From: an uncultured Bacilli bacterium
GTDB taxonomy: Bacteria > Bacillota_I > Bacilli_A > RF39 > UBA660
DNA: 64,000 nucleotides
Assembly (NCBI GenBank): GCA_910586425.1
Contig: CAJUHL010000004.1
Span: 1-64,000 of the forward strand
Direction of reading: 5' to 3'
Shown: piece after piece, positions 41,401 to 64,000 of the stretch
How positions within the stretch are numbered: position 1 is the stretch's first letter
Layout of the letters: each line of letters opens with the position of its first letter
Translations under genes and position numbers: made by a program
Notes under the pieces: generated by a model
Databases searched by the model: none
Told to the model about the DNA's origin: nothing
The model's input: only the letters and a program-made list of their open reading frames with translations

Positions 41401-43626
41401 AGCCTCCGAAGAATCTGTCGTAATCACTTCGATTGGGACGTCATCTGTATGCCGATCATGGCGAATATATCCATTTCTTGCTTTTGTTTCAATCCATGTG
41501 TAGCTGTATTCCAGTTCAATGAATTTATTGTAGGTATCTTCACAATCCTGTTGGCAGCCTGATTCCTTGTATGATTTATCAAGTCCAGGGCAGCCTGCCG
41601 TTCCAGCATCCGGAGTTTCTCCAGGTTCTCCACCACTTTCCGAAATTTCATCAATTACGCTTTGATCCACTTCCTCACTGAGCCAGTGGAAATGTACGCC
41701 TGGTCTATCTTCTTCTGCCATCTTAGAGCATTCATCAAAATATTCCTGCCACAAAGCAGCTACTTCTTTATTTGCCTTTTGAGCAGCTTCTATCTCTTCT
41801 TCATTATCTTCCTCTTCCTCTGGCACCTCACAAAACTCTGGTGCCGGATGTCCATCACAAAATGTCTTTTCATAATGATAACCCTTTTTGACATCATCTT
41901 CGATATGGCCTTCTCCATCGGTTGTGTAGGAATTTACAAGTCGGAAATCATCCCAAATAACAGGGCTTGTTGTATATTTGCTTTGCCATTCCTGATCGGA
42001 ATCATTGTCAATACCCTCGTATAATTCCACCGCTCCATCATGACCACGGTTAATCTGGTCTTTATCATCAAATCTCTCATATAACTCAAAGATGGAATTT
42101 TCTAATTTCTTTCCTGTTTCATAATCATGTTTTGTTAATTGTACATTATAGTTACTCTCCCAATCCTCTGTGTGTCTAAATATGCAAAAGTGCATGCCTG
42201 TTTCTGGCTCTATTGGAATCCCAGTTGGGTCTCCTAAACGAAAACATGGGTAGCAAGTAGATCCATCCTCTGGAAAATAAAATGAAATATGTCTCTGATG
42301 GTTTGCGATGTTTTTGCTTCCTGGGTGGGTTCCTCCGCAAGAATCACACGTAAATACATTTGTATGTCTTGCCACAAACTCAATTGGTGAATCAAATCCT
42401 TTTTGATTTGTAGATACAACTGAGTTTTGAGGAAGTTCAAAATACATGACTAAACCTTGTGGTTTTCCCTCTCCTTTCCATTCAAAAATAAAACACCAGG
42501 ATCCTTCTGTTGCTGTTGGGAAGATATCCCAGCCATTTATGTTTGTATGCTGGTTGAAATGTGTCAATGACCCAATTGAAACCCAGCTTTCACCATTCCA
42601 TACTTTTAGCCAACCACAGTTATTGAAAAAATCTTCGGTACAGTTAATTACATAATATCCATTCTTTTTAGTAGCACTTGTTCCAGGACCGTCATCCTCC
42701 TCTTCGCCATCATCTTCGCCCTCAATATCTTCATCTTCCCAATCCTCATTATTACTATAAGTAGAAGGACCTTCTGTATTTCCAGAACCAACTGTTACAG
42801 AATGGATTGTATAATAGTCAGAATTACTATCCATATCAAGAGCAACTTGTGATACCTGCTCATAACTGGGAACAAAACCGATTGGACCAGAAACCTCATG
42901 TCCTGCTGAATCCTTTGGCCATAAAGCCTTTCCACCATTCTCAGCTTGCTGTGCTTCATAAGAATTTAACCAGGCATTCCCAAGCCTTGGTAATGCTAGA
43001 GGATCGGTTTCATAATTTCTGTTTGGGTCGTACTGTCCCACCGGAAATAATGTGTGGGCGTTGGTAAGCATTTTAAGCAGTGGGTCTCGATCAATGATCG
43101 CCTGCCCTGCCGCGCCATGTACCACAGTTCCAAGCTCTGATTCTGTCATTGGATGAAATCCATAAGCAGCAAGTGCCGGAGCATATCCATGAAAAACCGA
43201 ATCCTGGTAGTTTTGGATTGCATAGTTAAACCATCGTTTCGCTCCTAAAAGATCATTTTCATTGGCAAAACTTTTACCTTCTGATACGAAAGTTACGATT
43301 CCTGACCAGAACATTTTAAGAAGAACATCATCATCTGTACTGATTGTTCGATGAAGGGTATCAATATTAGCTTGCAAAGCCTGGTTGTATTCTGGTGATT
43401 TATAACCATATTGAGCTTCTATGTCGTTCATATTGATCATCTTATTAGAATAACGGTCATTCTTTGACCATGATCCAGCAGAACTAAAGTTATGGTTATC
43501 TATACATACACCATAAGATGATGAAAATGCCTCTACCTTCTTCTGCCCAATATATGGCAGTATTGCTGTTGAGAATAAGGTTAATGCCAAAGCACCCGCA
43601 CATACCTTCTTCCATTTATGTTTCAT
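35494..43626 (-). CDS. giant SpaA-domain surface protein
   Basis: A 2710-residue protein with an N-terminal signal peptide (basic start, hydrophobic ALALTLFSTAILP). An acidic low-complexity linker lies near residue 300 and a cysteine pair region at CDSCGG. SpaA/Cna-B-like prealbumin folds are visible near 995-1070 (GEIHFNKRD...GAVYGLF...TITEAPG) and at the C-terminus (KLRIEKVDSETGEQLL...FSIY...VIAETKAPNGYA). Such folds form isopeptide-stabilised adhesin stalks. The protein ends at YQGNLIEQ with no LPxTG motif or membrane helix, so anchoring is unexplained. A CATAATA box lies at 43668-43674. Confidence 0.88.
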   Translation of the reverse strand: MKHKWKKVCAGALALTLFSTAILPYIGQKKVEAFSSSYGVCIDNHNFSSAGSWSKNDRYSNKMINMNDIEAQYGYKSPEYNQALQANIDTLHRTISTDDDVLLKMFWSGIVTFVSEGKSFANENDLLGAKRWFNYAIQNYQDSVFHGYAPALAAYGFHPMTESELGTVVHGAAGQAIIDRDPLLKMLTNAHTLFPVGQYDPNRNYETDPLALPRLGNAWLNSYEAQQAENGGKALWPKDSAGHEVSGPIGFVPSYEQVSQVALDMDSNSDYYTIHSVTVGSGNTEGPSTYSNNEDWEDEDIEGEDDGEEEDDGPGTSATKKNGYYVINCTEDFFNNCGWLKVWNGESWVSIGSLTHFNQHTNINGWDIFPTATEGSWCFIFEWKGEGKPQGLVMYFELPQNSVVSTNQKGFDSPIEFVARHTNVFTCDSCGGTHPGSKNIANHQRHISFYFPEDGSTCYPCFRLGDPTGIPIEPETGMHFCIFRHTEDWESNYNVQLTKHDYETGKKLENSIFELYERFDDKDQINRGHDGAVELYEGIDNDSDQEWQSKYTTSPVIWDDFRLVNSYTTDGEGHIEDDVKKGYHYEKTFCDGHPAPEFCEVPEEEEDNEEEIEAAQKANKEVAALWQEYFDECSKMAEEDRPGVHFHWLSEEVDQSVIDEISESGGEPGETPDAGTAGCPGLDKSYKESGCQQDCEDTYNKFIELEYSYTWIETKARNGYIRHDRHTDDVPIEVITTDSSEAGANSYFADEYSKDIIINENVNSSGGNEEDGDFEENEEDDETVSLSSVLSSMNLFGITAYAAETDPENEWNVWKGKPIEVEAVFENVKEEISTEHENDFEEENEDDTSFYDYEIEFGTATDSNADEEKIKAPAYDEEDFNISVLMSLRTSSKWNSDVMAISDDDEGESGSSEDYMTIYKQAFTDAFTGGDEVEIGPSDNWSHCNDTDGEGNEWRVYDHRTSGEIHFNKRDMDLVNKENTDYNAYADANADGKMEGAVYGLFAKNDIEHPDGKTGIVFKKNDLVAIGTTDRNGDGSFLTITEAPGTIYNYEKGTTETTSWNSNAPKNLYREGAKTSTIQPHVVFNDGETTEWFCDDYTEDGTYKGGLTQRLYDNNESNNMNCWIGRPLFMGEYYIKELSRSEGYELSVSGRLDAITNRGGDLSVSEETNSGSVTVSRNLYIQGQDSIGEANEPFFEVTSEGTNENGGYDIVLTKLPEGTKIYRHDSITEKGTYQAIDRYEYVGKVDENGNPVYKIAKTTGIPILKGDGTNDILMREEPGKYYVSGINVANIKEFDEIKIEESLKGKQKVNEDGTISYPDFDTMQTEFTMGPDSTYYIRFVKWKLEAALRTAGITTPNVRYTVNGSTSKAYSEQEMPYYSRGIRKGEIDVYGVSGVPEGEVATKTVYGPQIINIEVSKTNDLGNPISNGDMLYNLLQYYMDHPYWNFGGIDRIEDDGDHYNVYIYAHNSLISTSFGVLGTNKEDTVIYRRLEFDPNDTSFEPYIVYVPYENQESDESFGIYSNLNISNKYGTTKISATLSPDVIIDRDGNLSERIVQVPETYEIGDVIHDKNGNPEQELEAKPVYVEKEIDEIRMEWTEVPARYENGKYIIHVDMPGSDIFGKEITDANGKKTLEFKAVVPEKDIILTQEDINNLPSYYGMNAGDVFPSGAYEVEVKKARAYAYLDYTNEQESNEDTYIKEAILSYPGDEYVFQDGDGNPGSGTIRNPIRVMERPIRQKVKITKDIQTIPDSEEYLNDTYSEVHKENLSKNNRGSWYERTKDWLASLLGNDIEGQTASKIPEFRFKAYLKSNLERLYRDNDGNITWQDRNGNAYVPSYQDTNYDGNYDTFVWQSGTSTFDFPEKSIENGTSLESANVQKIYTKVEHKASSTTAGDISNNVWAKYADPQTGNTTNVGEVEGFSTSQDGENGEAVNVNAALYSYDDKNTNVKQTDKINQNQNQGYTRLLETRLRTMEDGAGKTREVEEYNYEKFFDAMAAANNDKWDNDMYSSTKNYPGQHWFDTFEERYQMDDADPDRTLANVDGVDEDGTAGGDRDNSFKPFQWIREHMFGTTQDAKDDYPATHDNDNLENKINTSDIAHRNAEASNEVRQFAIKWYLDDEVGKLVTNNGYDEDVAKKGYESYQEEVYDQALEQALIKAYNYLKPFYKYDLDTIYSVEWDSAENGGSDGDVTTLSADILYEMNGTSQGESKSGYYYGVSAYLPYGTYVLVEQQPFREDLDDFDNKHYKTDMPKELILPAVYEDGGNVGSPEVFHAFYNYNTKDTPVDLAKKYMIRFNEEWAENHTDDLRNYVIRAHGYDGDYEVYKYGLDVDKLIDTITYGSGNYSYDGYSITQDIYDPLKDYYNDPLVDTAYDGGNADSHYFADEDNKTFKTASGIPYPEDAIEKRYHFGSISENAGMANDVLYQLGSSTDDNNPSGFYFKDNVKTMTGNQTAYEGKYASMLVPWSVTEPAKSAVYSADDMTGYADRKFRNTFYQTKLRIEKVDSETGEQLLHDDAIFSIYAASRYTSRAEIEKAGAPAGTEIGDVKFYMEDTMITGSKEFLMSMGAWNIEPVMRGRAAVGMDELYTGIVAAGTPVCLEEEQIIMEDMLGNKTGQFKVYTTLNDVETVVEENAKGPEDKAYADQNTGYLVTPQPLGAGVYVIAETKAPNGYAKTRPIAVEIYSDSVSYYMNGLMDSKVESTIYQGNLIEQ

Positions 43627-43889: not shown

Positions 43890-44003
43890 AGAGAAAGACG
43901 GCGATGTAGCTGCCGTCTTAAGTAGGTACTGATTGCTTAACTAATTTTAGCAATCGTTGTCCGACCCATCAGGTGCTGGTAGGCTAGATGATGGGTCTTT
44001 TTT
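43890..44003 (+). ncRNA. putative antisense antitoxin RNA, locus 1
   Basis: From the promoter above a transcript of about 110 bases is expected. It would end at GACCCATCA/TGATGGGTC (43963-43971, 43989-43997) plus seven T residues. It overlaps the last third of the 54-residue gene in antisense. An extra GACGGC/GCCGTC hairpin lies near its 5' end. Ends are predicted, not measured. Confidence 0.6.
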
Positions 44004-44111
44004 TGAGCTTTTCTTGCCATTTATGTACTTCTTATATTCTTTGGCAATATTTATAATCCCACTCGTAATACTAACAAGTTTCCAAAATACATCCAGGATC
44101 ACTATACTCAT
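43947..44111 (-). CDS. 54-residue hydrophobic toxin-like peptide, copy 1
   Basis: ATG 44111 to TAA 43947 behind GAAAGGAGAAAAAGGTCAAT. Residues 2-24 (SIVILDVFWKLVSITSGII...) form a hydrophobic helix; a Lys-rich stretch follows, then SLPAPDGSDNDC with a C-terminal cysteine. The size, single helix plus basic tail, long leader and convergent antisense promoter match type I toxins such as TxpA or the clostridial hydrophobic toxins, though the sequence is not one I recognise. It is about 85% identical to copy 2. Confidence 0.7.
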   Translation of the reverse strand: MSIVILDVFWKLVSITSGIINIAKEYKKYINGKKSSKKDPSSSLPAPDGSDNDC

Positions 44112-44318
44112 ATTGACCTTTTTCTCCTTTCATCAATATTGACACTTACGCGCCTATGAAAAATCCATATATCCTATGGAGCTCTCAAAGACGCATAAGC
44201 ATCTCCATCTCCGTCCGGAGTGCCCGCAGTCCTTAATGTCTCATTGTCCGCACTTAGCTAAAACTCATATTAATCCCTCCTAACGAAGTGATTCTAAATG
44301 TAGACAAATGTAGTATAT
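44112..44318 (-). promoter_or_regulatory. long conserved leader of toxin-like gene, copy 1
   Basis: About 200 bases between a TATACTA-type -10 (near 44318) and the peptide start, closely conserved with 56440-56632. It begins with a strong ribosome site (AGGAGGGATTAAT) in front of a four-codon frame (MSFS-stop), then hairpin-forming sequence up to the real ribosome site. Such leaders commonly block toxin translation until processed (inference). Confidence 0.6.
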
Positions 44319-44335
44319 CACAAAATCTCCAAAAA

Positions 44336-44362
44336 GGAAAGAGGCGTCGTGCCTCTTTCTTT
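44336..44362 (-). terminator. rho-independent terminator
   Basis: AAAGAGGCAC and GCCTCTTT arms with a T run after the Ntn-hydrolase gene. Confidence 0.75.
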
Positions 44363-44388
44363 AGTAAACTTCTTATATATTCTTAGAC

Positions 44389-45027
44389 CTATGTATGAAT
44401 TTCATGGTTATTTGTAATCCATTTCGATTTTTCATTATTATTTTTAGGAATCAGAAAAATATCCGTATTTCCACCCACACTTTGGTTCATTCTATATTTA
44501 TAGGCCTGTATAGTTGTATCTACGGTTAATTTTGCCAAATCAATCACTTCTCTAATTGATAAATCACCATAGTATATATTTTTCATTATAACATCAGCAA
44601 TATCATTCCCTCCATGAAACGTTGCTCCATAATTATTACCACTAAAAGCCAATTTTATAGTCTTTTCTTTAAGATTCATGATATATATCATAGGAATATT
44701 TGCTTTTTTATCATACCCTGCAACAACTATAGTTATATCTGACATAGCTTCTTTTTGTTGATATTCCCAAAGCAATTGAGATGGAAAATCAAATATATCA
44801 GTGTCATATTTATATTTTTCTTTTACTTGTTCTAGAAATTGTATGATAGTATCTCCATTCAAATAATGGTTTCCACAAAAAGATACTGCAAGCCTTTCTG
44901 TACTTGGAAATATTTTTGTTGTTTCATCTGAAAAACGCATACTTCCACCGTTCCCTCTTATTGTTGTACGTCTATCTGCAGCTATTACAATTCCTTCCTT
45001 TGAATTTATTGATATAATAAGTGACAT
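44389..45027 (-). CDS. proteasome-like Ntn hydrolase
   Basis: A 212-residue protein. The N-terminus SLIISINSKEGIVIAADRRT is the conserved first strand and turn of proteasome beta/HslV-type folds; FSDETTKIFP, LAVSFCGN and DIFLIPK continue the pattern. In active members the residue exposed after Met removal is the nucleophile; here it would be Ser rather than Thr. No ATPase partner is nearby. AAAGGAGTAAGT and a CATACTA box (45059-45065) precede it. Confidence 0.75.
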   Translation of the reverse strand: MSLIISINSKEGIVIAADRRTTIRGNGGSMRFSDETTKIFPSTERLAVSFCGNHYLNGDTIIQFLEQVKEKYKYDTDIFDFPSQLLWEYQQKEAMSDITIVVAGYDKKANIPMIYIMNLKEKTIKLAFSGNNYGATFHGGNDIADVIMKNIYYGDLSIREVIDLAKLTVDTTIQAYKYRMNQSVGGNTDIFLIPKNNNEKSKWITNNHEIHT

Positions 45028-45058
45028 ACTTACTCCTTTGTTTTGAATGTATTTATTT

Positions 45059-45065
45059 TAGTATG
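45059..45065 (-). promoter_or_regulatory. CATACTA box
   Basis: Minus-strand CATACTA 32 bases before the Ntn-hydrolase start. Confidence 0.5.
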
Positions 45066-45145
45066 TTGCAATCTATCATTTCATTTATATAAAAAAATCA
45101 TATTGTTTACATTCCTTGTTTCTGATTAGTGTATTAGAAAATAAA

Positions 45146-45174
45146 AAGTCCTCATGAGAGGACTTTTCTTTTTA
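45146..45174 (-). terminator. rho-independent terminator
   Basis: AAAGTCCTC and GAGGACTTT arms with a T run, ending module A. Confidence 0.8.
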
Positions 45175-45180
45175 TCTTTA

Positions 45181-45302
45181 TTCCCATGCAACATCAGATG
45201 CTGAAAATCCGTAGGATTTCACTTTGTTACAATAGGATTTCTTGCATTCGTCTTATACATCATCAGCCACGCCAGTTCCGCTATAAGGGCCATAACATTA
45301 TC
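45181..45302 (-). pseudogene. 3' coding remnant
   Basis: After the stop of partner A, two adjacent frames read VMALIAELAWLMMYKTNAR and then CNKVKSYGFSASDVAWE-stop. The protein-like ending right before a terminator suggests the tail of a lost gene, broken by a frameshift. It shows that the 3' end of this module was replaced or decayed. Confidence 0.4.
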
Positions 45303-45767
45303 TTAGTCTGCCACAAACTTAATGAATTTCTTGTGTCCAAAAATTATGTTTAACTTTTCCCATGGATTTAACTTTCTGGTTCCATCAAAATCAAGATAAA
45401 AGTTCTCATACTGATAATATTTCAAATCAATGTCAAAAATTTTTTTGCATTTATCAAATTGTTCGTTTAAATCATCTGGGAAATCATCTTTTTTTACAAT
45501 ATTTTCTTTCTCATACTTAATATATTCTTGCATGAATCCTGGGACTTCGCTATATGCAATTCCGTTCATGCGTTCTTTTAACGTTGTTTCTTTTCCTGTG
45601 TAGACAGGATGGGCCGCAGCATATGAGCTGAATACGGAATATCGCTCTTGAGCCTTTTGGGCTTTTTTTTGCAGCCTTTTTGGTAAAGACTTTTTAAAAA
45701 TCACGTTCCCGCAATGCAATGCTTCAACATAATTACTTAATTCTACCGGAATAAGTTTCTCATACAT
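45303..45767 (-). CDS. partner protein of HEFGH module A
   Basis: A 154-residue protein behind TAGGAGGTTACGTCT. Its last 70 residues (DDLNEQFDKCKKIFDIDLKY...) align by eye with partners B (KEKFLICKRVMDVDFLY) and C (IQKFTNCKRYIEVDFNY), followed by a similar IIF-K/R-K tail. It always follows an HEFGH peptidase gene. An immunity or substrate-adaptor role is possible; nothing in the sequence decides. Confidence 0.65.
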   Translation of the reverse strand: MYEKLIPVELSNYVEALHCGNVIFKKSLPKRLQKKAQKAQERYSVFSSYAAAHPVYTGKETTLKERMNGIAYSEVPGFMQEYIKYEKENIVKKDDFPDDLNEQFDKCKKIFDIDLKYYQYENFYLDFDGTRKLNPWEKLNIIFGHKKFIKFVAD

Positions 45768-45865
45768 AGACGTAACCTCCTAACATTTTACACCACTATT
45801 TATCGATTTATATTGTTCTATTGCGATTAGAGATAAAAAATACTGTAACTATATATATAATGTAA

Positions 45866-45896
45866 TAAAAAGGCAGATTCCAAATCTGCCTTTTAT
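45866..45896 (-). terminator. hairpin after peptidase A
   Basis: AAAGGCAGATT and AATCTGCCTTTT arms with T residues between the peptidase and its partner gene, so read-through would be needed for co-transcription. Confidence 0.65.
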
Positions 45897-46654
45897 AATT
45901 TGTTGATGAATTTCTTATATTTATTTATGATTTTTTCGGACAATATCGTTGGATGGTTGCTGGTATAGTATTGGGAGAAGGCTTCAGCGAAGCATTCTAT
46001 GTAAGTATATCCTGCATAAGTTCCCAAATAATTGCAAGCATTATCCAATATGCGAAACTTTTCTGTGTATCCCAGTTCCTTCAAGGATTCAACACAAAAT
46101 TCAGTGATTTCGACAAAATCTGAAGTAATATTGCAATTCCTATCCTCAAATGTTGCCATGTAACCATTCACTATAGATAATTCTGGACAAACTTCATCCC
46201 ATTTATGAAGCCGACATAACAAATAATATTCCAGGATATGTCCAAATTCATGGCTCACCGTACTTTCAATGTATTCACCAGGGCCACATTTAATCGATAA
46301 TTCTCTGCGCTTTTGTATTTCAACTGATCTGAATTTTTCAGTATTGATAAACATAGTTATTGAGATTTTCCCATTTTCCACATATGGGACAACCGTTCCA
46401 CATACTCCACATGAGTTTGTACCCAAAATATCTCTTTCAATTAAATCATCAAATTCTCCAAATCTTATGCAATTCAAAAATCCTTTAGGCAGCTCCTCAT
46501 GTTCCGTCATAAGTAACTGTATCTGATTATAAGTCTTTTGGATTTCTTTGATACTTGCCTCTTCTATTCCAATAACATCTATCCCTAACTGTCCAAATTT
46601 ACATCTTAATTCATCATATTTGCTGCGTCTTAGCAGCTTATTTAATTTTAACAT
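45893..46654 (-). CDS. HEFGH zinc metallopeptidase, module A
   Basis: A 253-residue protein. SHEFGHILEYYLL provides two histidines and the catalytic Glu; ECFAEAFSQYY 90 residues later is the conserved third-ligand region seen in phage and toxin-associated zincins. The N-terminal 100 residues are helical with a GIDVIGIEE motif shared with modules B (GIRIYGIKS) and C (GIDVKELYL). No signal peptide. Its start codon lies at the foot of a leader hairpin. Confidence 0.8.
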   Translation of the reverse strand: MLKLNKLLRRSKYDELRCKFGQLGIDVIGIEEASIKEIQKTYNQIQLLMTEHEELPKGFLNCIRFGEFDDLIERDILGTNSCGVCGTVVPYVENGKISITMFINTEKFRSVEIQKRRELSIKCGPGEYIESTVSHEFGHILEYYLLCRLHKWDEVCPELSIVNGYMATFEDRNCNITSDFVEITEFCVESLKELGYTEKFRILDNACNYLGTYAGYTYIECFAEAFSQYYTSNHPTILSEKIINKYKKFINKL

Positions 46655-46754
46655 ATGTGATACCTCCTCCTTTCTACAGAAGGTATCACATGGCCCATCT
46701 GTAGTAGATTATTTTTTACTACAGAAGAGCTTGAAAGCTCCAATATTCTGTGTT
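46655..46754 (-). promoter_or_regulatory. structured leader RNA, copy A
   Basis: In mRNA order: GAGCTT/AAGCTC hairpin; TCTGTAGTA/TACTACAGA hairpin (46717-46725 with 46698-46706); ATGTGATACCT/AGGTATCACAT hairpin (46681-46691 with 46655-46665) whose loop holds the AAAGGAGG ribosome site and TCTGTAG (46674-46680), able to pair with CTACAGA of the second hairpin. A CATATTA box lies at 46760-46766. Confidence 0.7.
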
Positions 46755-46936
46755 GCGAATAATATGTTCTGAAATATTTCAAAATAATGTTGTGGATTCT
46801 GTTTATCTCACACTGTTTTGTTGCTCATATGGATCATTCATTGAAGAACTAGTGTTATAAAATACACGTTAATTCTTCAGTTCCTGATAATATGAGGTTC
46901 CATTATACTTGGAGTATATATGGACATTACAAAATC

Positions 46937-46970
46937 TCAAAAAGGAAAGAGGCACAGAGCCTCTTTTTCC
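46937..46970 (-). terminator. rho-independent terminator
   Basis: AAAGAGGC and GCCTCTTT arms with a T run after the SieB-like gene; the flanking sequence resembles the terminator at 44336-44362. Confidence 0.7.
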
Positions 46971-47033
46971 TGGTAGATAAGGGTTATCTTGTAAACGCCT
47001 TACATCTATCCGATTCAATTCATATAAATATTT

Positions 47034-47645
47034 CTAGTAAAAGCCTAAGTAATAGGGATCCCGATATACATATTCTTCGATCTTTTCACGTTCAGCTTTA
47101 AGTGCTTTCTTAAAAATTTCTTCCAAGTCTTTCTCTTCTTTTAGTTTAGTAATAACCCATGGCTGCAACATATATGGACGTTTTGGATTTTGTATATCTG
47201 TTACTGCTACTTGGTTAGTTGTTGGAGCAATTATCATACTTTGTAATAAAAATCTAACAGCTCCATCATTCATAGGAAGTTTCTGTGTATGTGTAGTGCT
47301 TGTGAATAAAAAATACACAATAGCCTTTTGGAATTTTTCCAAGTTTCTAAGGTTTTCACTTCCCTGTTTCAAAAATTTCTTCTCTTTATATTTAGCAATG
47401 TATCCTTTCGCTCCCTTTTTTAATAAATCATATATTCTTATTATCCCTTCTACAATTAAAATAGACCAAGTAATGATAAATAGAATACTTATGTAAACAC
47501 CATATTTTAACCTGAATTCCTGAAGATACAGCACCTGGCATATACTCTCTGGCAAAATCAGCATCACGCTTGTTGCAATTGCTATGGATCCAAAAATACG
47601 ATTTGACGATTTTAAAATTTCAGCAATATCAAAATTAAATTTCAA
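47034..47645 (-). CDS. SieB-like superinfection exclusion membrane protein
   Basis: A 203-residue protein with two membrane helices (about 18-36 and 48-68) followed by a basic, helical cytosolic part, an arrangement and pattern like the SieB family of phage exclusion proteins. AAAGGAGGATGGAA precedes the ATG and a CATACTA box lies at 47674-47680. Family assignment is from pattern by eye; a generic two-helix membrane protein is the alternative. Confidence 0.55.
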   Translation of the reverse strand: MKFNFDIAEILKSSNRIFGSIAIATSVMLILPESICQVLYLQEFRLKYGVYISILFIITWSILIVEGIIRIYDLLKKGAKGYIAKYKEKKFLKQGSENLRNLEKFQKAIVYFLFTSTTHTQKLPMNDGAVRFLLQSMIIAPTTNQVAVTDIQNPKRPYMLQPWVITKLKEEKDLEEIFKKALKAEREKIEEYVYRDPYYLGFY

Positions 47646-47673
47646 GTTCCATCCTCCTTTACAATTATAAAAT

Positions 47674-47680
47674 TAGTATG
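47674..47680 (-). promoter_or_regulatory. CATACTA box
   Basis: Minus-strand CATACTA 29 bases before the SieB-like start. Confidence 0.5.
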
Positions 47681-47791
47681 TATCTCTTCTATACTTTTTC
47701 ACATTTCAACACATCCTTGTTTTATAATATTTTCCAATCCTTAACCACACTGATTGCTTCTTTATCAAAAATCTATATTTATTATTTCTCT

Positions 47792-47798
47792 CATACTA
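47792..47798 (+). promoter_or_regulatory. CATACTA box
   Basis: Plus-strand CATACTA just ahead of the AAAAGGAG ribosome site of the 47822 gene. Confidence 0.5.
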
Positions 47799-47821
47799 AA
47801 AGAAAAGGAGAATCTATTTCT

Positions 47822-48187
47822 ATGACAACTAATATATTAAATGATATTAAAATGTACTATATTAAAAAATACGATTTATTAGGTAAGAAACGAATTGATC
47901 CTCGCTATGATTTATTGGGTGTCTTTCGACATGATTTTTTTCTTAAGCCAGGGTATACAGAAGCTGATTATAAAAGTTTACCTTATCCTGATAGAAACGC
48001 TCTCATCGACTTTTCAGACAGACGATGGATTGAATACTGTATGTTGGATGACAAACGTATCTCTCAGATGTTAGTTATGAATAATCCTATTTCCTCGCAA
48101 AAAGCAAAAAAGTCTTTAATAAAACGGTATAACCGTCGCTGGTCTTCATTTATTAAAAACGGAACTAACATATCACTATTAAGATAA
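47822..48187 (+). CDS. hypothetical protein, convergent overlap with next gene
   Basis: A 121-residue basic protein from ATG 47822 behind AAAAGGAGAATCTATTTCT; the longer frame upstream lacks signals. It is rich in Tyr, Arg and Lys with repeats of YDLLG. Its last 41 codons overlap, on the opposite strand, the end of the 48064-48663 gene. No family recognised. Confidence 0.6.
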   Translation: MTTNILNDIKMYYIKKYDLLGKKRIDPRYDLLGVFRHDFFLKPGYTEADYKSLPYPDRNALIDFSDRRWIEYCMLDDKRISQMLVMNNPISSQKAKKSLIKRYNRRWSSFIKNGTNISLLR

Positions 48188-48663
48188 TAACATTTTATAT
48201 CTCTTCTTTTAAGATGTGCCTCATAAAAACGATGCTTTCCATCAAGAATATAATACTGTCTAGTAGGCATCAATAGCATAATATATATTGGTTCTTGCTT
48301 AATTATAGGGAATGTATTTAATTTCACTTTTTCTTCCTCCATCGCCTCTATCTGTCTTTTATAAGCAGTTTCTCCTAAATCTTCACGAATTTGGGACAAT
48401 GAAACCACAGCATAATCGTCTGGATGGTTATGGAGGATGTAATTCCTCAAATTAGATATATTCCATGTTAAAGAAAGGCTTTCATTTGTCTGCATAAATT
48501 CGATATATTCAGTATCTAGTTCTCCTTCTATATCTTTATCTATAGAAAGATTTAAAGAATAATATAGCCTTTTCATTTCATTGAGTCTTTCTGTATAAAC
48601 TACTCTTGAAAAAGTTTTCATTCCATTTATATAATCTTGAATTTTTAGAAATGTTTTCTCCAT
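48064..48663 (-). CDS. hypothetical protein with ParB-like segment
   Basis: A 199-residue protein from ATG 48663 behind GGAGGTAGGATGG. The segment TRQYYILDGKHRFYEAHLKR, after a predicted strand, resembles the ParB/Srx fold core (dG-HR). The C-terminal 40 residues overlap the opposite gene. A sigma-A-type promoter (48693-48721) reads toward it. Confidence 0.55.
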   Translation of the reverse strand: MEKTFLKIQDYINGMKTFSRVVYTERLNEMKRLYYSLNLSIDKDIEGELDTEYIEFMQTNESLSLTWNISNLRNYILHNHPDDYAVVSLSQIREDLGETAYKRQIEAMEEEKVKLNTFPIIKQEPIYIMLLMPTRQYYILDGKHRFYEAHLKRRDIKCYYLNSDMLVPFLINEDQRRLYRFIKDFFAFCEEIGLFITNI

Positions 48664-48692
48664 CCATCCTACCTCCAGCTTTCTATATCCAG

Positions 48693-48721
48693 AGTTTACC
48701 ATAAATCCATAAGCTTTTCAA
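48693..48721 (-). promoter_or_regulatory. sigma-A-type promoter, copy 1 of 3
   Basis: TTGAAA, 17 bases, TAAACT on the minus strand, then CTGGATATA. The same promoter with flanking similarity recurs at 56039-56067 and 57343-57371. Confidence 0.7.
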
Positions 48722-48774
48722 TTCAATTCCACAAAGACTTCTCTCCACATAACAAAAAACTCACTGAAATTTCT

Positions 48775-48968
48775 TCCCATGAGTATAAAGTTAATTGCCG
48801 AAAATGTACATTGCCGGGTGTTAAGCTATTCCGACAACTTTGAATAATTACTGCTACAATAGTATTGAGCAATAGCTTCTGCAAAACATTCCTGATAATT
48901 TATATTAGATGCTAGTACAAGAATATATCCTACCGAATCTAGTATCCTTACATACCAGATTGAAAATA
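48775..48968 (-). pseudogene. relic of an HEFGH peptidase fused to a secreted-protein tail
   Basis: One frame reads ILDSVGYILVLASNINYQ then ECFAEAIAQYYCSSNY and a stop, matching the module A ending ECFAEAFSQYYTSNHP. Just after it another frame reads TPGNVHFRQLTL, matching TPDSVHFQQLTL of the relic at 51116-51325, then a terminator-like stem. This is a fourth, dead copy of the module joined to a different 3' tail. Confidence 0.6.
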
Positions 48969-49080
48969 TGTAAAATATTTACACGTATATAACTTTACAT
49001 ATGTATATAGTTCTACCACATTCCTTCCGACAATTTCCTGTATAATAGATATATGCTCCTCTCTGTAAAACCAATTCTTT

Positions 49081-49632
49081 TTAGAATTCTCTTCCACATC
49101 CTTTTAACATTGCTGGATATATTGCAGGTGTACCATTTAACACAGTCAGTTCTAATATATTATCGTGTTTCAAATATTCTTCATGATATTCTGAATTATC
49201 TTTTTCTACTATTTTGTTTAAAGTAACACTCAAAAAATCCGGCTTTAAGTATGGACTACTTTTTCCAACTATATACGGATACTTTTGAATGATTTCATTT
49301 TTTTCTTGAAGAGATACATATCTATATACAATTGTATCTTCTTTCAATTTTGGTGCAGATTGAATCAACACAGAAATAATTCCTGAATAAATAGCAAATT
49401 CTATATTTCGATTAAATCCTCCCTTTTGATATACACCATTTCTTAAATATTCATTTATCTTTACTCCAATATCTCCACAGTAATATGCTAATGGATTATT
49501 TATTGTTATATAATCTAGACATCCATCTAATAATATGGGAAATTTCCAATTTAATTTTGTATAATTTATATTGTACCAGTTACTCCATCCACGGAATATT
49601 TGTTTCAGTATATCTTTGTTCACTTTTTTCAC
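49081..49632 (-). CDS. ADP-ribosyltransferase-like protein, possibly 3'-truncated
   Basis: A 183-residue protein. TIVYRYVSL (the NAD-binding Arg), LKPDFLSVTL (Ser-x-Thr strand) and GTPAIYPAML fit the R-S-E class of toxin ADP-ribosyltransferases. The expected ExE turn would follow GCGREF, but the frame stops there, so the last catalytic Glu may be missing. The start overlaps the stop of partner B (ATGA), making it the third gene of module B. Confidence 0.6.
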   Translation of the reverse strand: MKKVNKDILKQIFRGWSNWYNINYTKLNWKFPILLDGCLDYITINNPLAYYCGDIGVKINEYLRNGVYQKGGFNRNIEFAIYSGIISVLIQSAPKLKEDTIVYRYVSLQEKNEIIQKYPYIVGKSSPYLKPDFLSVTLNKIVEKDNSEYHEEYLKHDNILELTVLNGTPAIYPAMLKGCGREF

Positions 49633-50186
49633 TCCCTATATCCATGTTGAAGAAAATATTCCTTTTCTGCCTTATATTTACTGAAATTTTTAATGTAATC
49701 AATATCTAATACACTTTTACAATCTAAGTCCCAAGATATTCTGTTTAGTCTTGATTTTTTAATAAAGATAATACTGTTTCCTATTTTCCAGGATGATTGT
49801 AATCCTATTTTTTTTCCATTTATAAAAATGCTCTCTCTAAAATACAAAAAGTCAACATCCATCACTCTTTTACATATCAAAAATTTCTCTTTTACTTCAT
49901 CTGGAACTTCTTTTTTTTCTATAATTTCTCCATCTTTATAAAAAACATATTCAAAGATATCTTCTGGAATATAATATTTATAAAAACCTCCTTTTGGTGT
50001 TAATGATGACATATACCAACCATGTAAACTTGTATATTTTAAATATGGATCCCACTCGTTTTTTCTTTTTTTAAATTCTTCATATTCAATCTCAGACACA
50101 TCATCCTTGATAAAAGCATCTCCACACCAAAAATATTTAATTTTATCTTTTTGTGAAAATTTTTCATATGGATCGATTCTACTCAT
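49629..50186 (-). CDS. partner protein of HEFGH module B
   Basis: A 185-residue protein behind AGGAGAGAAATC, 53 bases after peptidase B. Shared features with partner C: IYYIPQD/KYYIPED, a charged turn, then PxE(V/L)xxKFxxCKRxxxVDFxY and a IIFIKKSR-like end. Partner A shares the last part only. Rich in aromatic residues, no catalytic motif. It overlaps the ADP-ribosyltransferase-like gene. Confidence 0.7.
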   Translation of the reverse strand: MSRIDPYEKFSQKDKIKYFWCGDAFIKDDVSEIEYEEFKKRKNEWDPYLKYTSLHGWYMSSLTPKGGFYKYYIPEDIFEYVFYKDGEIIEKKEVPDEVKEKFLICKRVMDVDFLYFRESIFINGKKIGLQSSWKIGNSIIFIKKSRLNRISWDLDCKSVLDIDYIKNFSKYKAEKEYFLQHGYRE

Positions 50187-50226
50187 GATTTCTCTCCTAT
50201 AAGTTATGATTTTTAAATATTATGAA

Positions 50227-50256
50227 AGAAAAAGACGGTTCACCCGTCTTTCAATG
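50227..50256 (-). terminator. hairpin at the end of peptidase B
   Basis: GAAAGACGG and CCGTCTTTTTC arms overlapping the stop of peptidase B. As in module A, a hairpin separates peptidase and partner genes. Confidence 0.6.
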
Positions 50257-50965
50257 CTTTACGTATCTCTTCAACAATTATTAAGGATAATCTGCTATCC
50301 AAACCACAATAATGCATTGCAATAGCTTCTGCAAATATTTCATCTTTACTTCTAGAGGCATATTCACCAATTTGTTCAACAATAATTTGAATCTTAGGTT
50401 CATTCCCTTCAAAATATCGATTAAATGCATTTTCTACGATACTATCCGATTTCTTTTTCTTATACCTTTTATCAATTTTCTCATATGATTCCCAATTTTT
50501 GCAACTCATAGGATTATACCCAGACATTATCAAATCTAATAAATGTCCAAATTCATGAGCTATAATTATCTTGATAAAAGTTTCTTTATCCACCTTTTTG
50601 CTTCCAACTTCTTCATCATTACCTATAGATTTAAATGCTGATTTGTTGAAAACTATGCCTAATCTCTTTTTCATATCCACATATGGTCTTATATATCTTG
50701 AAACAAAAAAACCGCTACTTGCTAATGTATCACAACTTAATCGAATATAATTAAAATACTTCCTATCTTCAACTCTGATCCATGCTAGGCTTCCATTGTT
50801 CACAATTGGGTATAAATCAATCAATTCTGATAAATATACATATATAAGTTTCCATATCTCTAATTCCAGACTCTTTATTCCATATATTCTTATCCCAATT
50901 TTCTGGAACTTTTCCCTGATTTTCTTATATTCATTGCTTCCTTGCAATATTTTTTTAATTTTCAT
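50240..50965 (-). CDS. HEFGH zinc metallopeptidase, module B
   Basis: A 241-residue protein with AHEFGHLLDLIM and, 80 residues later, EIFAEAIAMHYCG as third-ligand region. The N-terminus shares the IREKFQKIGIRIYGI pattern with the other two copies. Cytosolic by lack of a signal. The ATG forms part of the stem ATAATACCT/AGGTATTAT, so its translation should depend on leader folding. Confidence 0.82.
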   Translation of the reverse strand: MKIKKILQGSNEYKKIREKFQKIGIRIYGIKSLELEIWKLIYVYLSELIDLYPIVNNGSLAWIRVEDRKYFNYIRLSCDTLASSGFFVSRYIRPYVDMKKRLGIVFNKSAFKSIGNDEEVGSKKVDKETFIKIIIAHEFGHLLDLIMSGYNPMSCKNWESYEKIDKRYKKKKSDSIVENAFNRYFEGNEPKIQIIVEQIGEYASRSKDEIFAEAIAMHYCGLDSRLSLIIVEEIRKALKDG

Positions 50966-51056
50966 AATACCTCCTTCCTACAGAAGGTATTATACAACCC
51001 ATCTGTAGATAAAACAATATTTACAGATGAGCTTTAAGGCTCCAAGTTTCTGTGCC
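50966..51056 (-). promoter_or_regulatory. structured leader RNA, copy B
   Basis: In mRNA order: GAGC/GCTC hairpin; CATCTGTA/TACAGATG hairpin (51022-51029 with 51000-51007); ATAATACCT/AGGTATTAT hairpin (50985-50993 with 50964-50972) that includes the AT of the start codon and places the AAGGAGG ribosome site at the loop. TCTGTAG (50978-50984) can instead pair with CTACAGA (51002-51008). CATACTA promoter box at 51062-51068. Confidence 0.7.
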
Positions 51057-51061
51057 TGAAA

Positions 51062-51068
51062 TAGTATG
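51062..51068 (-). promoter_or_regulatory. CATACTA box of leader B
   Basis: Minus-strand CATACTA at the expected position for a transcript starting just before the leader hairpins. Confidence 0.5.
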
Positions 51069-51085
51069 ACAAAATAAAGAAATAA

Positions 51086-51113
51086 AAAACTCATCGGAAT
51101 TTCTTCCGACGAG
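51086..51113 (-). terminator. terminator of the relic upstream of module B
   Basis: AACTCGTCGGAA and TTCCGATGAGTT arms with a T run. Near-copies lie at 48760-48785, 56098-56126 and 61863-61893. Confidence 0.75.
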
Positions 51114-51115
51114 TT

Positions 51116-51325
51116 TAAAGTTAATTGCTGAAAATGTACGCTATCCGGTGTTGGAAAATCAAGATTCAGCACCTGATTAGAACCTATATAAGCAGTTCCA
51201 TTCACTCTGATGCAATATACAATATGATCTCCAGTTCCAGAAATGGCAGCTTTCAAACTTAATGCTTTTGCAAGAGAACAAGCCGTCACAGCATATTCTG
51301 TACACAATCCTTTCTTGTCAATCAA
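51116..51325 (-). pseudogene. transglutaminase-like domain fragment
   Basis: A frame reads IDKKGLCTEYAVTACSLAKA, then GDHIVYCIRVNGTAYIGSN and TPDSVHF. GLCTEYA with the nucleophile-type Cys, then the His and a 'vnGTAYIGS' strand, is the ending of a transglutaminase-like domain as found in secreted Lachnospiraceae proteins. The 5' part is absent and the frame runs into leader B without a proper stop, so it is a relic. Confidence 0.6.
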
Positions 51326-51470
51326 GAGTAATAACGATATAAATTTCTTACATCTGTCTTTGTTTAACCCAGCCTATACAAGTAACTTGAACATAGCAAG
51401 GCTATTATCTTTTATTATAAAAGATGAAATTATTAAAAAAGCCCTTGAAAAGGACTTTTTAACAATAATC

Positions 51471-53828
51471 CTAATCCAGAACACCCATGTTGTCTGCACC
51501 TTTCATTATTAAGAATTGTGTAATATCATGATTGTTTGCTTTTGATAGAATACTCTTATTCCTAGCCTGAACGTCAGCTCCATAAGCTATCAACAGGTTC
51601 GTAATCTCATAATTCCTATATTGTACTGCTTGAAATAATGGATAGTCATGATCTACATGAACATTCGCTCCTCCCTTAAGTAAACATTCCGTTAATTTAT
51701 ATTTCTCCTTCCTTACCGCATACCGCAGCAACCAGTCATTATCAACATGAATATCTGCTCCAAAAGATAAAAGGAAATTTACGGTTTCTATGCTTCCATT
51801 TTCAACCGCAGTCTTCAATACCTCATCATTACATGCATGGATATCTGCTTTGTTTTCTAACAAATATGATAATACCTTGATTTCATCATTTTCGGCAGCC
51901 AGCCTCAATAATCCTTCATTATCGTCATGAAGATTCACTCCGTTACCAACTAACGAATCAATCAAATCATATTTTTCATCTTTTATAGCAGGATACAGAA
52001 TATAAGGGTCAATATCATTAGGATCGGCTCCAGCATCTAATAAAACATTGACAATCTCGTTATACCCATTCTCTATCGCATAGTACAAGGCACACTCGTT
52101 ACGAACATGAACATCTGCTCCAATTGATAAAAGATACTTGGCAAGCTCTACTTGATTATTCTTCACTGCTAAACGAAATGCAAGATAATCATTCGCATGA
52201 ACATCCACTCCCATTTCAACCAGGTATTTTATAAGTTCCATATCGCCCTTTTTTATGATAGTCATAAGAGGACATCTAAGTGATACATTTCCTTTAGATG
52301 ACCCATCCATATGTTTTCCATCTGTTTCTTCACCAAAATCATATGCTTTTACTTCTTCATAAATATTCGCTCCGCAATCTAACAGATATTTCACGGTTTC
52401 AACATGCTTTTTTTCAAGTGCATATTTCAGAAGTATATTAACATCAAATCCAGCCTCCACCATAAACTTTACAATATCAAGATAGTCCTTTACTCCATTT
52501 TGTCTTACAATATATCCGTCCCTGCTTTCTATCCAAGTTCCTTTATCTAATAGAGTTTTTGCTAATTCCATATTCTTATACCGAACAGCAATAAACAATA
52601 AGTAATTGTTTTTTATGTTTATATCGGCTCCTGCATCTACTAAGAAATTCAACATCTCAAAATCAAATTTGCGGTTATATTTTTCTGGACAGTACAAATA
52701 TTCTTCATAACGGTACTCTTTCTCAAGTATGCCCTCTTTTAATCCTAAAGCTGCATACAAAGCCTTATCTTTCGTATCTTTCTTGCTTGCTCCTTTCTTA
52801 TATAAGAATTTAACAATCTCGATGTCTCCCGTTTCAACCGCACAAGCAAGGAAATCATCCTGTTTACGGATGTTTATTCCTGCTTTCAATAAATACTTAA
52901 TTATATCTAAGTTTTTTGTCCTTATTGCCGTATAGAATATGTAATCATTACCAGCATGGATGTCAGCTCCTGCCTCTACAACGCACTTTAAGATACTGAT
53001 ATCCTTTGAATAAATTGCTGATTCAAGCGCATATTCATACACGCGAATATTTGCTCCATCTTCCAATAGTTGTTTTATGAGTTCTGTGTTTTTCCTTAAT
53101 ATAGCTTTCTTAAGAAGTTTTTTTTCAACAGCTTTGAGCCTCGCTCCTTTTTTCAACAAATGTTTAGACATATTGAAATCTCCAGTTAGATAGGCTATAT
53201 ATAAAGCCGCATCATCACCTGCATGAATATCCGCTCCTGCATTTAATAATTGGTCAACGATGTTTGTTTTTTCACTTCCTACAGCATAATATAAAACATG
53301 ATTCTTATTACCATAAACATTTGCACCCTCACTGATTAAGTAATCAATAATTTCAGGATCTCCTCTTAAGGCTGCGATCGATAATGGCGCTGCGTTTCTT
53401 AAACTGACTGCCATTTCGGATCCAGTATTAACATAAGCCAATTTCTCTATCAAATACTGAATAATATCCAGTTTGCCATTTAATACTGCGCATTGAAGCA
53501 ATCCATCTATATCTTTATAAACGTCAATGCCCTGCTCTTCCAGCCAATTAAATGTATCAACTGTATAAATGTCACGGATTTCTTCTATTACAATCTCGCT
53601 TGCATAATAATTCCCTTGTGAAAATGAAACCACCACTTCATCTGATGGGATTGTGACTCTTGCAATTTTACTGTTTCTCCAAAACTGATCGATGATTCCT
53701 CTTTCATCAGTGAACAAAAATTTATTATAATCCTTGCCTGACTCGGATGCTTTTGGATATATATTATGGCCCTCCTTATATGAATATCCATTTTCCTCCA
53801 AATTTTCATTAAAAACTTTAAAAAACAT
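51471..53828 (-). CDS. ankyrin-repeat protein, long
   Basis: A 785-residue protein. Residues 1-95 form a domain also present in the 54054-54896 product (FKVF-E-L--NGYSYKEGHNI... DERGII... IARVTIPSDEVVV), followed by roughly 20 ankyrin repeats of about 33 residues (e.g. VKYLLDCGANIYEE). The N-terminal domain has the pattern seen in front of ankyrin repeats of mimivirus-like giant viruses. No signal peptide; a protein-binding scaffold is likely. AAAGGAGGAAGATAT and a CATACTA box (53859-53865) precede it. Confidence 0.85.
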   Translation of the reverse strand: MFFKVFNENLEENGYSYKEGHNIYPKASESGKDYNKFLFTDERGIIDQFWRNSKIARVTIPSDEVVVSFSQGNYYASEIVIEEIRDIYTVDTFNWLEEQGIDVYKDIDGLLQCAVLNGKLDIIQYLIEKLAYVNTGSEMAVSLRNAAPLSIAALRGDPEIIDYLISEGANVYGNKNHVLYYAVGSEKTNIVDQLLNAGADIHAGDDAALYIAYLTGDFNMSKHLLKKGARLKAVEKKLLKKAILRKNTELIKQLLEDGANIRVYEYALESAIYSKDISILKCVVEAGADIHAGNDYIFYTAIRTKNLDIIKYLLKAGINIRKQDDFLACAVETGDIEIVKFLYKKGASKKDTKDKALYAALGLKEGILEKEYRYEEYLYCPEKYNRKFDFEMLNFLVDAGADINIKNNYLLFIAVRYKNMELAKTLLDKGTWIESRDGYIVRQNGVKDYLDIVKFMVEAGFDVNILLKYALEKKHVETVKYLLDCGANIYEEVKAYDFGEETDGKHMDGSSKGNVSLRCPLMTIIKKGDMELIKYLVEMGVDVHANDYLAFRLAVKNNQVELAKYLLSIGADVHVRNECALYYAIENGYNEIVNVLLDAGADPNDIDPYILYPAIKDEKYDLIDSLVGNGVNLHDDNEGLLRLAAENDEIKVLSYLLENKADIHACNDEVLKTAVENGSIETVNFLLSFGADIHVDNDWLLRYAVRKEKYKLTECLLKGGANVHVDHDYPLFQAVQYRNYEITNLLIAYGADVQARNKSILSKANNHDITQFLIMKGADNMGVLD

Positions 53829-53858
53829 ATATCTTCCTCCTTTTATCCTTAATGTATT

Positions 53859-53865
53859 TAGTATG
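53859..53865 (-). promoter_or_regulatory. CATACTA box
   Basis: Minus-strand CATACTA 31 bases before the long ankyrin gene. Confidence 0.5.
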
Positions 53866-54023
53866 AAGGAAATTTTAGGTAAAAGGCCTTTTTTAATAAT
53901 TAATAGACTTGATTGGTGTCATTGAGAAAACTCCCGAAAATGTGGAAATAATGCATGCCCAATTTACTTTTCTAAAGTGCAAGAGCAGAAACAATCATAC
54001 TAAAATAATTTTTAAACTCTACA

Positions 54024-54052
54024 AAAAAGTCCTCCGAAGAGGACTTTTAACC
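54024..54052 (-). terminator. rho-independent terminator
   Basis: AAAGTCCTC and GAGGACTTT arms with a T run after the short ankyrin gene. Confidence 0.8.
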
Positions 54053-54053
54053 A

Positions 54054-54896
54054 CTAATACAAACTCTTTAAATATTCTACTACTTCTAAATGACCATTTT
54101 CAGAGGCCCAACGCAATGCGCAATCATTATCTGCATGAATATTTGCTCCGGATTCTACTAAAAATCTTACCACATCCATATGGCCATTTCTAGATGCCCA
54201 ATGTAAGGCAAAATTATTACGGGCATGAACATTTGCTCCGGATTCTATCAAAAGTCTTACCACATCCATATGACCCTTTGCAGAGGCCCAACACAAAGCA
54301 AAATCATCACGGATATGAACATCAGCTCCTGATTCTACTAAAAGTCTTACCACATCTAAATGGCCATTTTCTGCTGCCCAACGCAAAGCAAAATCATCAT
54401 CTGCATGAATGTGAGCGCCTTTCGCCACTAAATATTTAACGATTTCCAAATTACCATTTTCTGCGGCTAAACATAAGGGAAGGTCGTTCAAGGCATGAAT
54501 ATTTGCTCCTGACGCTAATAAAAGTCTTACTGCCTCATCATCACCCTTTTCAGAGGCACAAATTAAAGCGTAATCATCATCTGCATGAACATCTGCTCCA
54601 CAACTTATTATCCATTCAAAAGTTTCTTTTGTCCATAGTTCCCGGACCGGTCCCAAGATAATTCGATGTGCCTTATATTCTTCTCCTACCGGAACAACGG
54701 CCTCTCCATCCGGGATTGCCACCTCGGCAATTTTTGTTCCATAATCACAAAACCTTAAAATCTCTTTTTCATCTGCAAAAAATAATCCGTTTCCGTAATC
54801 TGGTGTTGGATCAAATGGATTCGGATCTATATTCAGTCCCTCATGATAAGTATACCCGTTATATGTTAAGTCTTCGCCCAGAATTTTAAAATACAT
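54054..54896 (-). CDS. ankyrin-repeat protein, short
   Basis: A 280-residue protein with the same N-terminal domain as its neighbour (MYFKILGEDLTYNGYTYHEG ... LFFADEKEILRF ... IAEVAIPDGEAVV) and five to six near-identical ankyrin repeats (WAxxxGHxDVVRxLxESGAxxHxxxDxAL). The high identity between repeats points to recent internal expansion. A CATATTA box lies at 54928-54934. Confidence 0.87.
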   Translation of the reverse strand: MYFKILGEDLTYNGYTYHEGLNIDPNPFDPTPDYGNGLFFADEKEILRFCDYGTKIAEVAIPDGEAVVPVGEEYKAHRIILGPVRELWTKETFEWIISCGADVHADDDYALICASEKGDDEAVRLLLASGANIHALNDLPLCLAAENGNLEIVKYLVAKGAHIHADDDFALRWAAENGHLDVVRLLVESGADVHIRDDFALCWASAKGHMDVVRLLIESGANVHARNNFALHWASRNGHMDVVRFLVESGANIHADNDCALRWASENGHLEVVEYLKSLY

Positions 54897-54988
54897 ACTA
54901 ATCTCTCCTTTTGGTCTTTGATAGGATTAATATGTAGAAAATAAATGCCTCAAAAGAATTCAATCGCTGAAAAAAGAACTTCATTAAA

Positions 54989-55467: not shown

Positions 55468-55473
55468 AGAAAA

Positions 55474-56010: not shown

Positions 56011-56038
56011 GCTTCTCCTCCAGATATCTTATATCCAG

Positions 56039-56067: not shown

Positions 56068-56097
56068 TTTGTCTTCAAATCATTCTCCAAGAAACAA

Positions 56098-63206: not shown

Positions 63207-63235
63207 AACGAACGAGATTCAGCCTCGTTCATTTT
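63207..63235 (-). terminator. hairpin at the end of peptidase C
   Basis: GAACGAG and CTCGTTC arms with T residues, overlapping the peptidase stop as in module B. Confidence 0.65.
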
Positions 63236-63918
63236 TATAATGTTCTAATATTAATCTCGTTGTTGTATTCTCAATTCCACAGTATTTATATGCAAACGCC
63301 TCTGCAAACGCTTCAGATGTATGCATGAATTCACTTAACTTATCATTGATACTTATCTGATTTCTGTTCTTTTTGGGAAATAATGACCAAATAATGTTTT
63401 CAATAATATGTTGTGAAGATAATGCATTATATAAAAAATTTGCAACCTCTTTTCTAGTAACCGCTTCTGGATGTTTAAACTTATAAGATTTCATTGACCA
63501 TACAATATCCACAACATGACCAAACTCATGTGCGGTTGCATATACATAGCCGGAATCAATAGGGAGATTCTCTAACTTCATTTTAGTTGCAAAGGTATTG
63601 CTGTCCAAAAAATAGTGCTTGTGTTATATCAAAATATTGTGCTTTTTCATAATGGAGTTTCTTGTCTAACTGAAAAAAATGGACTTCTGCGATACCATTC
63701 TTTGTCTTTTCAAAATTAATCTCTTTTACAATTCCTTTAACCTCTGGAAATTCCTCTAACATTTTCTTTAAACATGTAAGCATTTGTTTCCATAAAGTTT
63801 CCTTTAATAAGTACAATTCTTTTACATCAATACCTAACTCTTTAAAATCTTCTTTTATTTTCAGATACTGATCATCTAAGATCTTCTTGTTTATAAAAAA
63901 CTTTTTTATATTTAACAA
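63219..63918 (-). pseudogene. HEFGH zinc metallopeptidase, module C, frame split
   Basis: A first frame starts at TTG 63918 (AAAGGAGGTAAATATA) and ends after ALFFGQQYLCN; a second continues LDSNTFATKM, AHEFGHVVDIVW and EAFAEAFAYKYCG to 63219. The switch lies in a run of six T (63607-63612 on the plus strand); five T would give one 230-residue chain like modules A and B. It is therefore either a recent inactivation, a phase-variable tract or a base-calling error. Confidence 0.7.
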
Positions 63919-64000
63919 TATATTTACCTCCTTTCACAGAGATAAACATAATGTCATGTTTTCATCTGTGAGTCGATTCTAACAGATGAAAACCCATTTG
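63919..64000 (-). promoter_or_regulatory. structured leader RNA, copy C (cut by edge)
   Basis: TTTTCATCTGT/ACAGATGAAAA hairpin (63982-63992 with 63959-63969); TATGTTTATC/GGTAAATATA stem beside the ribosome site; TCTGTGA (63934-63940) able to pair with TCACAGA (63965-63971). In copies A and B this last pair is TCTGTAG with CTACAGA, so both strands changed together. Confidence 0.65.

Follow-up and report, generated by a model that had tools for sequence, protein, structure and literature searches.

In the ermC leader the strands pair in the order 1:2, 2:3 and 3:4, and the SD of the regulated gene is located in strand 4. In the part of the literature on erm-type attenuators drawn on here, ribosome stalling is thought to expose the SD (PMC5118997). 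For the type I toxin mRNA aapA3, the section used of a further study, which also mentions hok, describes that folding during transcription decides about the access to the SD (PMC6733600). An RNA leader in front of a peptidase gene has been described as well: according to the excerpt considered, a c-di-GMP class I riboswitch precedes the gene of the metallopeptidase PPEP-1 in Clostridioides difficile (PMC11477304).

To these systems we compare three leaders, named A, B and C, from a window of 64,000 nucleotides of an uncultured Bacilli bacterium (contig CAJUHL010000004.1; all positions refer to this whole stretch). In computed folds they resemble the erm/cat attenuators such as ermC, with the SD lying in a 3:4 hairpin and an alternative 2:3 pairing that would free strand 4. 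They differ from them in that no leader peptide with an SD was found in A or B, in an additional 5' strand (strand 0) and in the peptidase genes located downstream. With the PPEP-1 riboswitch, as far as the excerpt describes it, they may share the position in front of a peptidase of possibly related fold, but they match no Rfam c-di-GMP riboswitch model. Co-transcriptional folding that governs the access to the SD, as proposed below for the leaders, would be common to them and to aapA3; in the section of the aapA3 study used, transient hairpins hide the SD, whereas here a transient 2:3 pairing (P4) would free it and the final fold hides it. At the gathering score none of the Rfam 15 families matched anywhere in the window, and permissive searches gave six matches for leader A and seven for leader B, all unrelated and far below the cut-off. 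This agrees with the preliminary description of the locus, which had recognised no known RNA class. General literature searches, with subscription journals mostly outside their scope, met no paper on these leaders or cassettes.

The three peptidase genes and their leaders are all encoded on the minus strand. Each leader runs up to and includes the start codon of its HEFGH-type peptidase gene and contains two strong hairpins, P2 and P3. Leader A (46652..46756, spanning strand 0 to the peptidase A start codon) comprises strand 0 (46746..46752, CACAGAA, 5' arm of P1), strand 1 (46717..46730, GCUC-U-UCUGUAGUA, 5' arm of P2), strand 2 (46693..46706, containing CUACAGAUGGG, 3' arm of P2 and 5' arm of P4), strand 3 (46678..46691, AUGUGAUACCUUCU, 5' arm of P3 and, together with the next bases GUAG, 3' arm of P4) and strand 4 (46655..46668, 3' arm of P3 with the SD AGGAGGU). 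Leader B (50963..51058, likewise spanning strand 0 to the peptidase B start codon) has the corresponding strands 1 to 4 at 51022..51033, 50996..51008, 50982..50994 and 50963..50975, the last one carrying both SD and AUG, so that the start codon lies within P3. In leader C (63916..64000, with a TTG start) they are found at 63982..63993, 63958..63971 (UCACAGA), 63938..63950 and 63919..63931 with the SD; its 5' part extends past the window edge, where strand 0 would also fall. All strands were assigned from the folds, with the permutations described below also being used for strand 2 of each leader and strand 3 of A, and the SD pairing for strand 4 of B. The common layout of three leaders at these positions had already been claimed and could be confirmed, with z-scores of −6.17 (A), −6.37 (B) and −7.01 (C) and 0 of 200 shuffles being as stable for each leader.

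In the minimum-energy folds P2 is formed by strands 1 and 2, with UCUGU pairing to ACAGA plus a lower stem that varies between the copies, and P3 by strands 3 and 4, with the SD (AGGAGGU; GGAGGU in C) paired to the 5' arm of P3. The SD is hidden by P3 in all three leaders, and its unpaired probability at 37 °C is 0.001 in A and 0.008 in C. From the sequence the ribosome site had been placed in the loop of this start-proximal stem, which is not the case as the SD is paired within the stem itself. The downstream strand had been placed in the same loop and lies there with its last four bases, its UCU being part of the P3 stem. Among 47 gene starts, hand-picked from 70 listed frames with 23 left out and analyzed with 60 shuffles each, leader A ranks first, C third and B fourth by z-score. 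Over the final 16 bases the unpaired probability averages 0.20 in A, 0.22 in B and 0.09 in C. The start ranked second (29423-29992, z −8.06) has an open start region (0.64), the one ranked fifth (32727-34157, z −5.12) a closed one (0.20), and starts with weak folds are equally closed (61152-61775, 0.14; 54054-54896, 0.20; 13255-13989, 0.22). Thus, a closed start is not special by itself; what is special is the strong fold added to it. An RNA thermometer was considered and rejected, the modelled unpaired probability of the SD being just 0.015–0.029 at 65 °C. Judged from these models, the peptidase genes are probably silent until something tips the leader fold.

In order to follow the pairing between the copies, paired positions were counted from folds anchored on GGAGGU and ACAGAUG; leader alignments made with MAFFT misplaced the P3 arms. 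In P3, 14 positions are paired in at least two copies, six of them being changed on both sides, three on one side and five unchanged, and at the helix ends B and C each have one unpaired position. The start-proximal stems therefore differ in sequence and keep pairing, just as the preliminary description had stated. In the lower P2 three positions show double changes and one a one-sided change. Three further double changes are located in the upper P2, where the homology between the copies is unclear, and several positions of P2 lack a partner in one copy. In the 2:3 core two of the seven pairs changed on both sides in C, which had been read as directly visible covariation. The change is indeed present, but it can equally be explained by two indels, an insertion of one base in strand 2 and a deletion of one base in strand 3, so that on its own it is weak covariation. 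P2 and P3 are kept by compensatory change, and the stronger covariation is that of P3 and the lower P2, not of the 2:3 duplex.

This kept pairing also bears on the idea that the inverted repeats act at the DNA level, as operator or recombination sites, which would fit to the ACAGA/TCTGT blocks being repeated at four places in A and B. Such sites are difficult to reconcile with pairing that is kept while the sequence changes and with helices that end on the SD and the start codon. Furthermore, the folds contain three, five and three G-U pairs and, with the ViennaRNA parameters on which all energies given here hinge, the coding strand is more stable than its complement in the three leaders (−39.2 versus −36.5, −37.6 versus −28.3 and −30.9 versus −19.7 kcal/mol), as is expected of an RNA with G-U pairs. 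We regard a DNA-level element as highly improbable.

Instead of closing P2, strand 2 can pair with strand 3 to form P4, which competes with both P2 and P3 and is made by CTACAGA and TCTGTAG in A and B and by TCACAGA and TCTGTGA in C. The 2:3 pairing goes beyond this core by two pairs past a mismatch in A and by four past a bulge in B, and it comprises 16 pairs in all in C. Taken by itself, the stretch that begins with the 3' arm of P2 and closes with the P3 loop folds to the P4 hairpin, at −11.7 kcal/mol in A, −13.5 in B and −14.7 in C. We then permuted the pairs of P2 and the pairs of P3 not involving the SD, with both helices being kept (for leader A, P3 was taken to include an isolated inner U-G pair, which was permuted as well, giving 15 pairs). 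A P4 of the same strength resulted in 24 (A), 8 (B) and 2 (C) of 5000 permutations each, which are not three independent tests since A and B are homologous. Leader C, in which the arms are quite different in sequence, gives the strongest result. P4 complementarity exceeds chance with P2 and P3 fixed, and the claimed ability of the middle strand to pair either upstream or downstream is borne out by computation.

When the transcription of A is modelled, the best fold includes P4 once strand 3 is complete and up to the middle of the SD. In C this holds for five bases, with P4 being 0.8 kcal/mol short one base earlier, and in B the P4 fold is 2.8–3.6 kcal/mol short before the SD. Over several bases, while the SD is still incomplete, the best fold is equalled by P1 and P4 together in A and by P4 and a 5' hairpin in C. 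In the full-length leader the SD-hidden fold with P2 and P3 is the more stable one, by 15.3 kcal/mol in A, 14.0 in B and 12.9 in C. With the SD-hidden fold winning by 13–15 kcal/mol at equilibrium, a two-state ligand switch that acts on the finished RNA is unlikely, and either a co-transcriptional decision or a trans-acting opener would be needed. For the same reason P4 may never form in the cell.

This large advantage of P2 and P3 at full length is also what would be seen if the leaders were static, with P3 lowering translation or blocking read-through transcripts, P2 insulating or stabilizing the RNA, and the 2:3 complementarity being a by-product of similar 5' arms. Indeed, UCUGU is common to the 5' arms 1 and 3 of every copy, and the modelled SD is still paired up to 65 °C. 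It is less easily explained in this way that P4 is beyond what P2 and P3 lead to expect in every copy, according to the permutation counts given above, and that it reaches its 16 pairs in C, where the arms differ. The chief rival explanation is still that P3 alone silences the genes statically; we consider it possible and somewhat doubtful.

A further pairing is found at the 5' side, where strand 0 can pair with strand 1 (P1), clearly in A and weakly in B. P1 of A has an energy of −10.8 kcal/mol and 14 of 1000 shuffles were as stable, compared to 94 of 1000 in B, which is not significant. The region is alike in A and B (CACAGAAnnTTGGAGCYTTMAAGCTCWTCTGTA). The best early fold of A consists of P1 and P4; the P4-containing intermediates shown for B use other 5' pairings, and P1 is back only in the full-length P4 fold. 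Upstream of leader B a terminator-like hairpin (51087..51116, minus strand) ends about 30 bases before strand 0. If it is active, transcription of B begins between the hairpin and the leader or within the leader. The sole sigma-70-like promoter on the minus strand near leader A, from 46940 to 46913, is located upstream of the leader. Since the scan found no such promoter directly ahead of leader B, and since the scans gave fewer sigma-70-like sites than shuffled sequences, they do not fix the transcription start. Nevertheless, the hairpin in B and the promoter-like site in A are consistent with transcripts spanning the whole leader.

Taken together, we favour, with confidence that is evenly balanced, a family of cis-acting leader RNAs that would by default prevent translation of the peptidase gene behind them, with a co-transcriptional factor favouring P4. 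This explanation rests on three copies, with leader C being clipped by the window edge. By default P2 (1:2) and P3 (3:4) would be closed, and the SD, in B also the start codon, would be buried in P3. If strand 2 pairs with strand 3 instead, the SD would become free, and strand 0 could support this by taking up strand 1 in P1, which would release strand 2 for P4. The cue may be a factor or an RNA bound at P1 or strand 1, a ribosome, or polymerase pausing, and the choice between P2 and P4 during transcription would then set the number of ribosomes loaded before P3 closes. The sensor of A and B, if there is one, would most naturally be sought in P1, for which the evidence is weak. A more specific version, in which the leaders are a new class of default-off translational switches whose P1 senses a metabolite, an RNA or a protein and which gate the first gene of repeated peptidase cassettes co-transcriptionally, appears rather unlikely to us.

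Two ways to open P3 by translation were also considered. In classical translational attenuation of the erm/cat type, a ribosome stalled on a leader peptide over strand 1 would free strand 2, and the leaders do have the same topology of 1:2, 2:3 and 3:4 pairing with the SD in strand 4. However, no ATG, GTG, TTG or CTG frame of more than one codon with an SD of at least four matching bases precedes strand 2 in A (searched from 46945) or B (from 51086), and we give this mechanism very little credence. Coupled reinitiation would require that a short frame with its start at the strand 2 ATG crosses P3 and ends beside the peptidase start, so that its translation opens P3. Such frames exist in A (46698 to 46650, 16 codons) and B (51002 to 50957, 15 codons), but they have no SD and start inside P2, and the same ATG in C reaches a stop after three codons, making this route scarcely plausible. 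Returning to the default-off leader, the initial proposal of an RNA switch or attenuator of peptidase translation is partly supported by computation, with respect to the shared leader, the alternative pairing, the compensatory changes and the SD sequestration, and is narrowed by the missing SD-bearing leader peptide in A and B and by the unlikeliness of a simple two-state ligand switch.

A search for related copies with covariance models had been suggested as a check and gave no convincing further leader among 196 class genomes (model R1), 398 phylum genomes (model R2), the viral pattern matches, plasmids (A and B) and phages (B). When a model is built on the single sequence of leader B, it recovers leader A at 58.5 bits (E 4.4e-13 over the 64 kb), even though the two peptidases are just 27% identical. 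Copy C is matched by model R1 with 7.6 bits in its P3 part only and not as a whole leader, and it is absent among the matches of model R2 up to E 2. Four of the 196 class genomes matched model R1 at E 0.1 with short or badly paired alignments, which we judged to be chance. The same holds for the three of 398 phylum genomes matched by model R2 at E 0.02, two of them being hairpins without the P3 part (L132, L133) and one being inside a coding frame (L134). Groups of nine and six genomes gave no match with model R2. In viral contigs a pattern scan gave 112 stretches, all without a match to model R2 up to E 0.5, a second pattern gave two stretches, chance by eye and without model match, and a third none. 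Leader B hit four plasmid and two phage records in a distant blastn search (25–35% covered, best E 0.3), which were taken as chance, and leader A matched no plasmid record. The window stretches 1-25000 and 44000-64000 have no near match among phages or plasmids. As no outside genome is known to carry the leader, the empty genome searches weigh little. Counting against the favoured explanation, there are only three copies, with C being clipped and its gene broken, and the likeness of leaders A and B could also be explained by recent exchange between them.

The gene products downstream are peptidase A (45893..46654), for which the structure model predicts an M34-like fold, peptidase B (50240..50965), which shows 27% identity to A over 147 residues, and peptidase C (63219..63918), all on the minus strand. 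The gene of peptidase C is broken into the overlapping frames 63583-63918 and 63219-63608, although leader C retains P2, P3 and P4. The predicted fold is possibly akin to the catalytic domain of lethal factor and to Pro-Pro endopeptidases with HExxH. Against the sequences of solved structures the peptidase profile produced chance matches only. The protein cluster of peptidase A is listed on 120 contigs. Searches for relatives at E 0.001 resulted in four and three proteins, including a 173-aa variant of B in the first list and the window's own protein in the second. The relative P0003 has the predicted N-terminus MLSSVEESN before MFKILKRLL, which would fit a frame running through strand 3 and the SD.

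Profile A2 identified one genome contig, where the 5' end is missing at the contig edge, and one viral contig, where the domain ends a 1154-aa protein, and model R2 found no leader on these two contigs. This profile matched none of nine genomes and five of 391 class genomes including G001 itself, and model R2 reached at best just 14.8 bits (E 0.046) at six profile A2 loci. Peptidase B alone had no match in viral contigs and peptidase A none in plasmids or phages. The mid protein of cassette B had no match in plasmids and a weak one in one of 391 genomes.

Each peptidase gene is followed by a gene for a homologous mid protein (45303-45767, 49629-50186 and 62496-63071, minus strand), resulting in a repeated cassette of three genes with a variable third one that is proteasome-like, ADP-ribosyltransferase-like or unassigned. 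The tested cassette proteins gave no PADLOC match. The frames 50990-51325, which runs through leader B, and 61912-62517 (both minus strand) have a similar C-terminal stretch (VNGTAYIGSNQVLNL and VDGTAYLGSNNIFNL, by eye) and no Pfam match at 0.01. Elsewhere on the minus strand we observed a JetC-like protein (21815-25036), which we take to be a component of a Wadjet defence system, two adjoining radical SAM proteins that resemble peptide maturases below the curated NCBIfam cut-offs (57446-60042), and a protein with NAD-dependent DNA ligase domains that has the adenylation domain end only (14577-15803), its neighbouring frame 15812-16096 looking by eye like the missing ligase part. No tRNA genes were found in the window. 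The protein encoded at 6509-7432, used in an attempt to place the window, matched 48 of 245 genomes with 53% identity at best, which did not point to the host. Downstream of cassette A there is a gene for a protein of 2710 aa that carries a SpaA domain close to its end (35494-43626, minus strand). For C. difficile, the excerpt cited above describes the cleavage of surface adhesins by a peptidase whose fold is possibly related (PMC11477304).

If the switching is true, three divergent cassettes would be under one translational gate. Peptidase-led cassettes, with B including an ADP-ribosyltransferase-like gene, would then be kept silent until a cue arrives, following the logic of an attenuator without an evident leader peptide.
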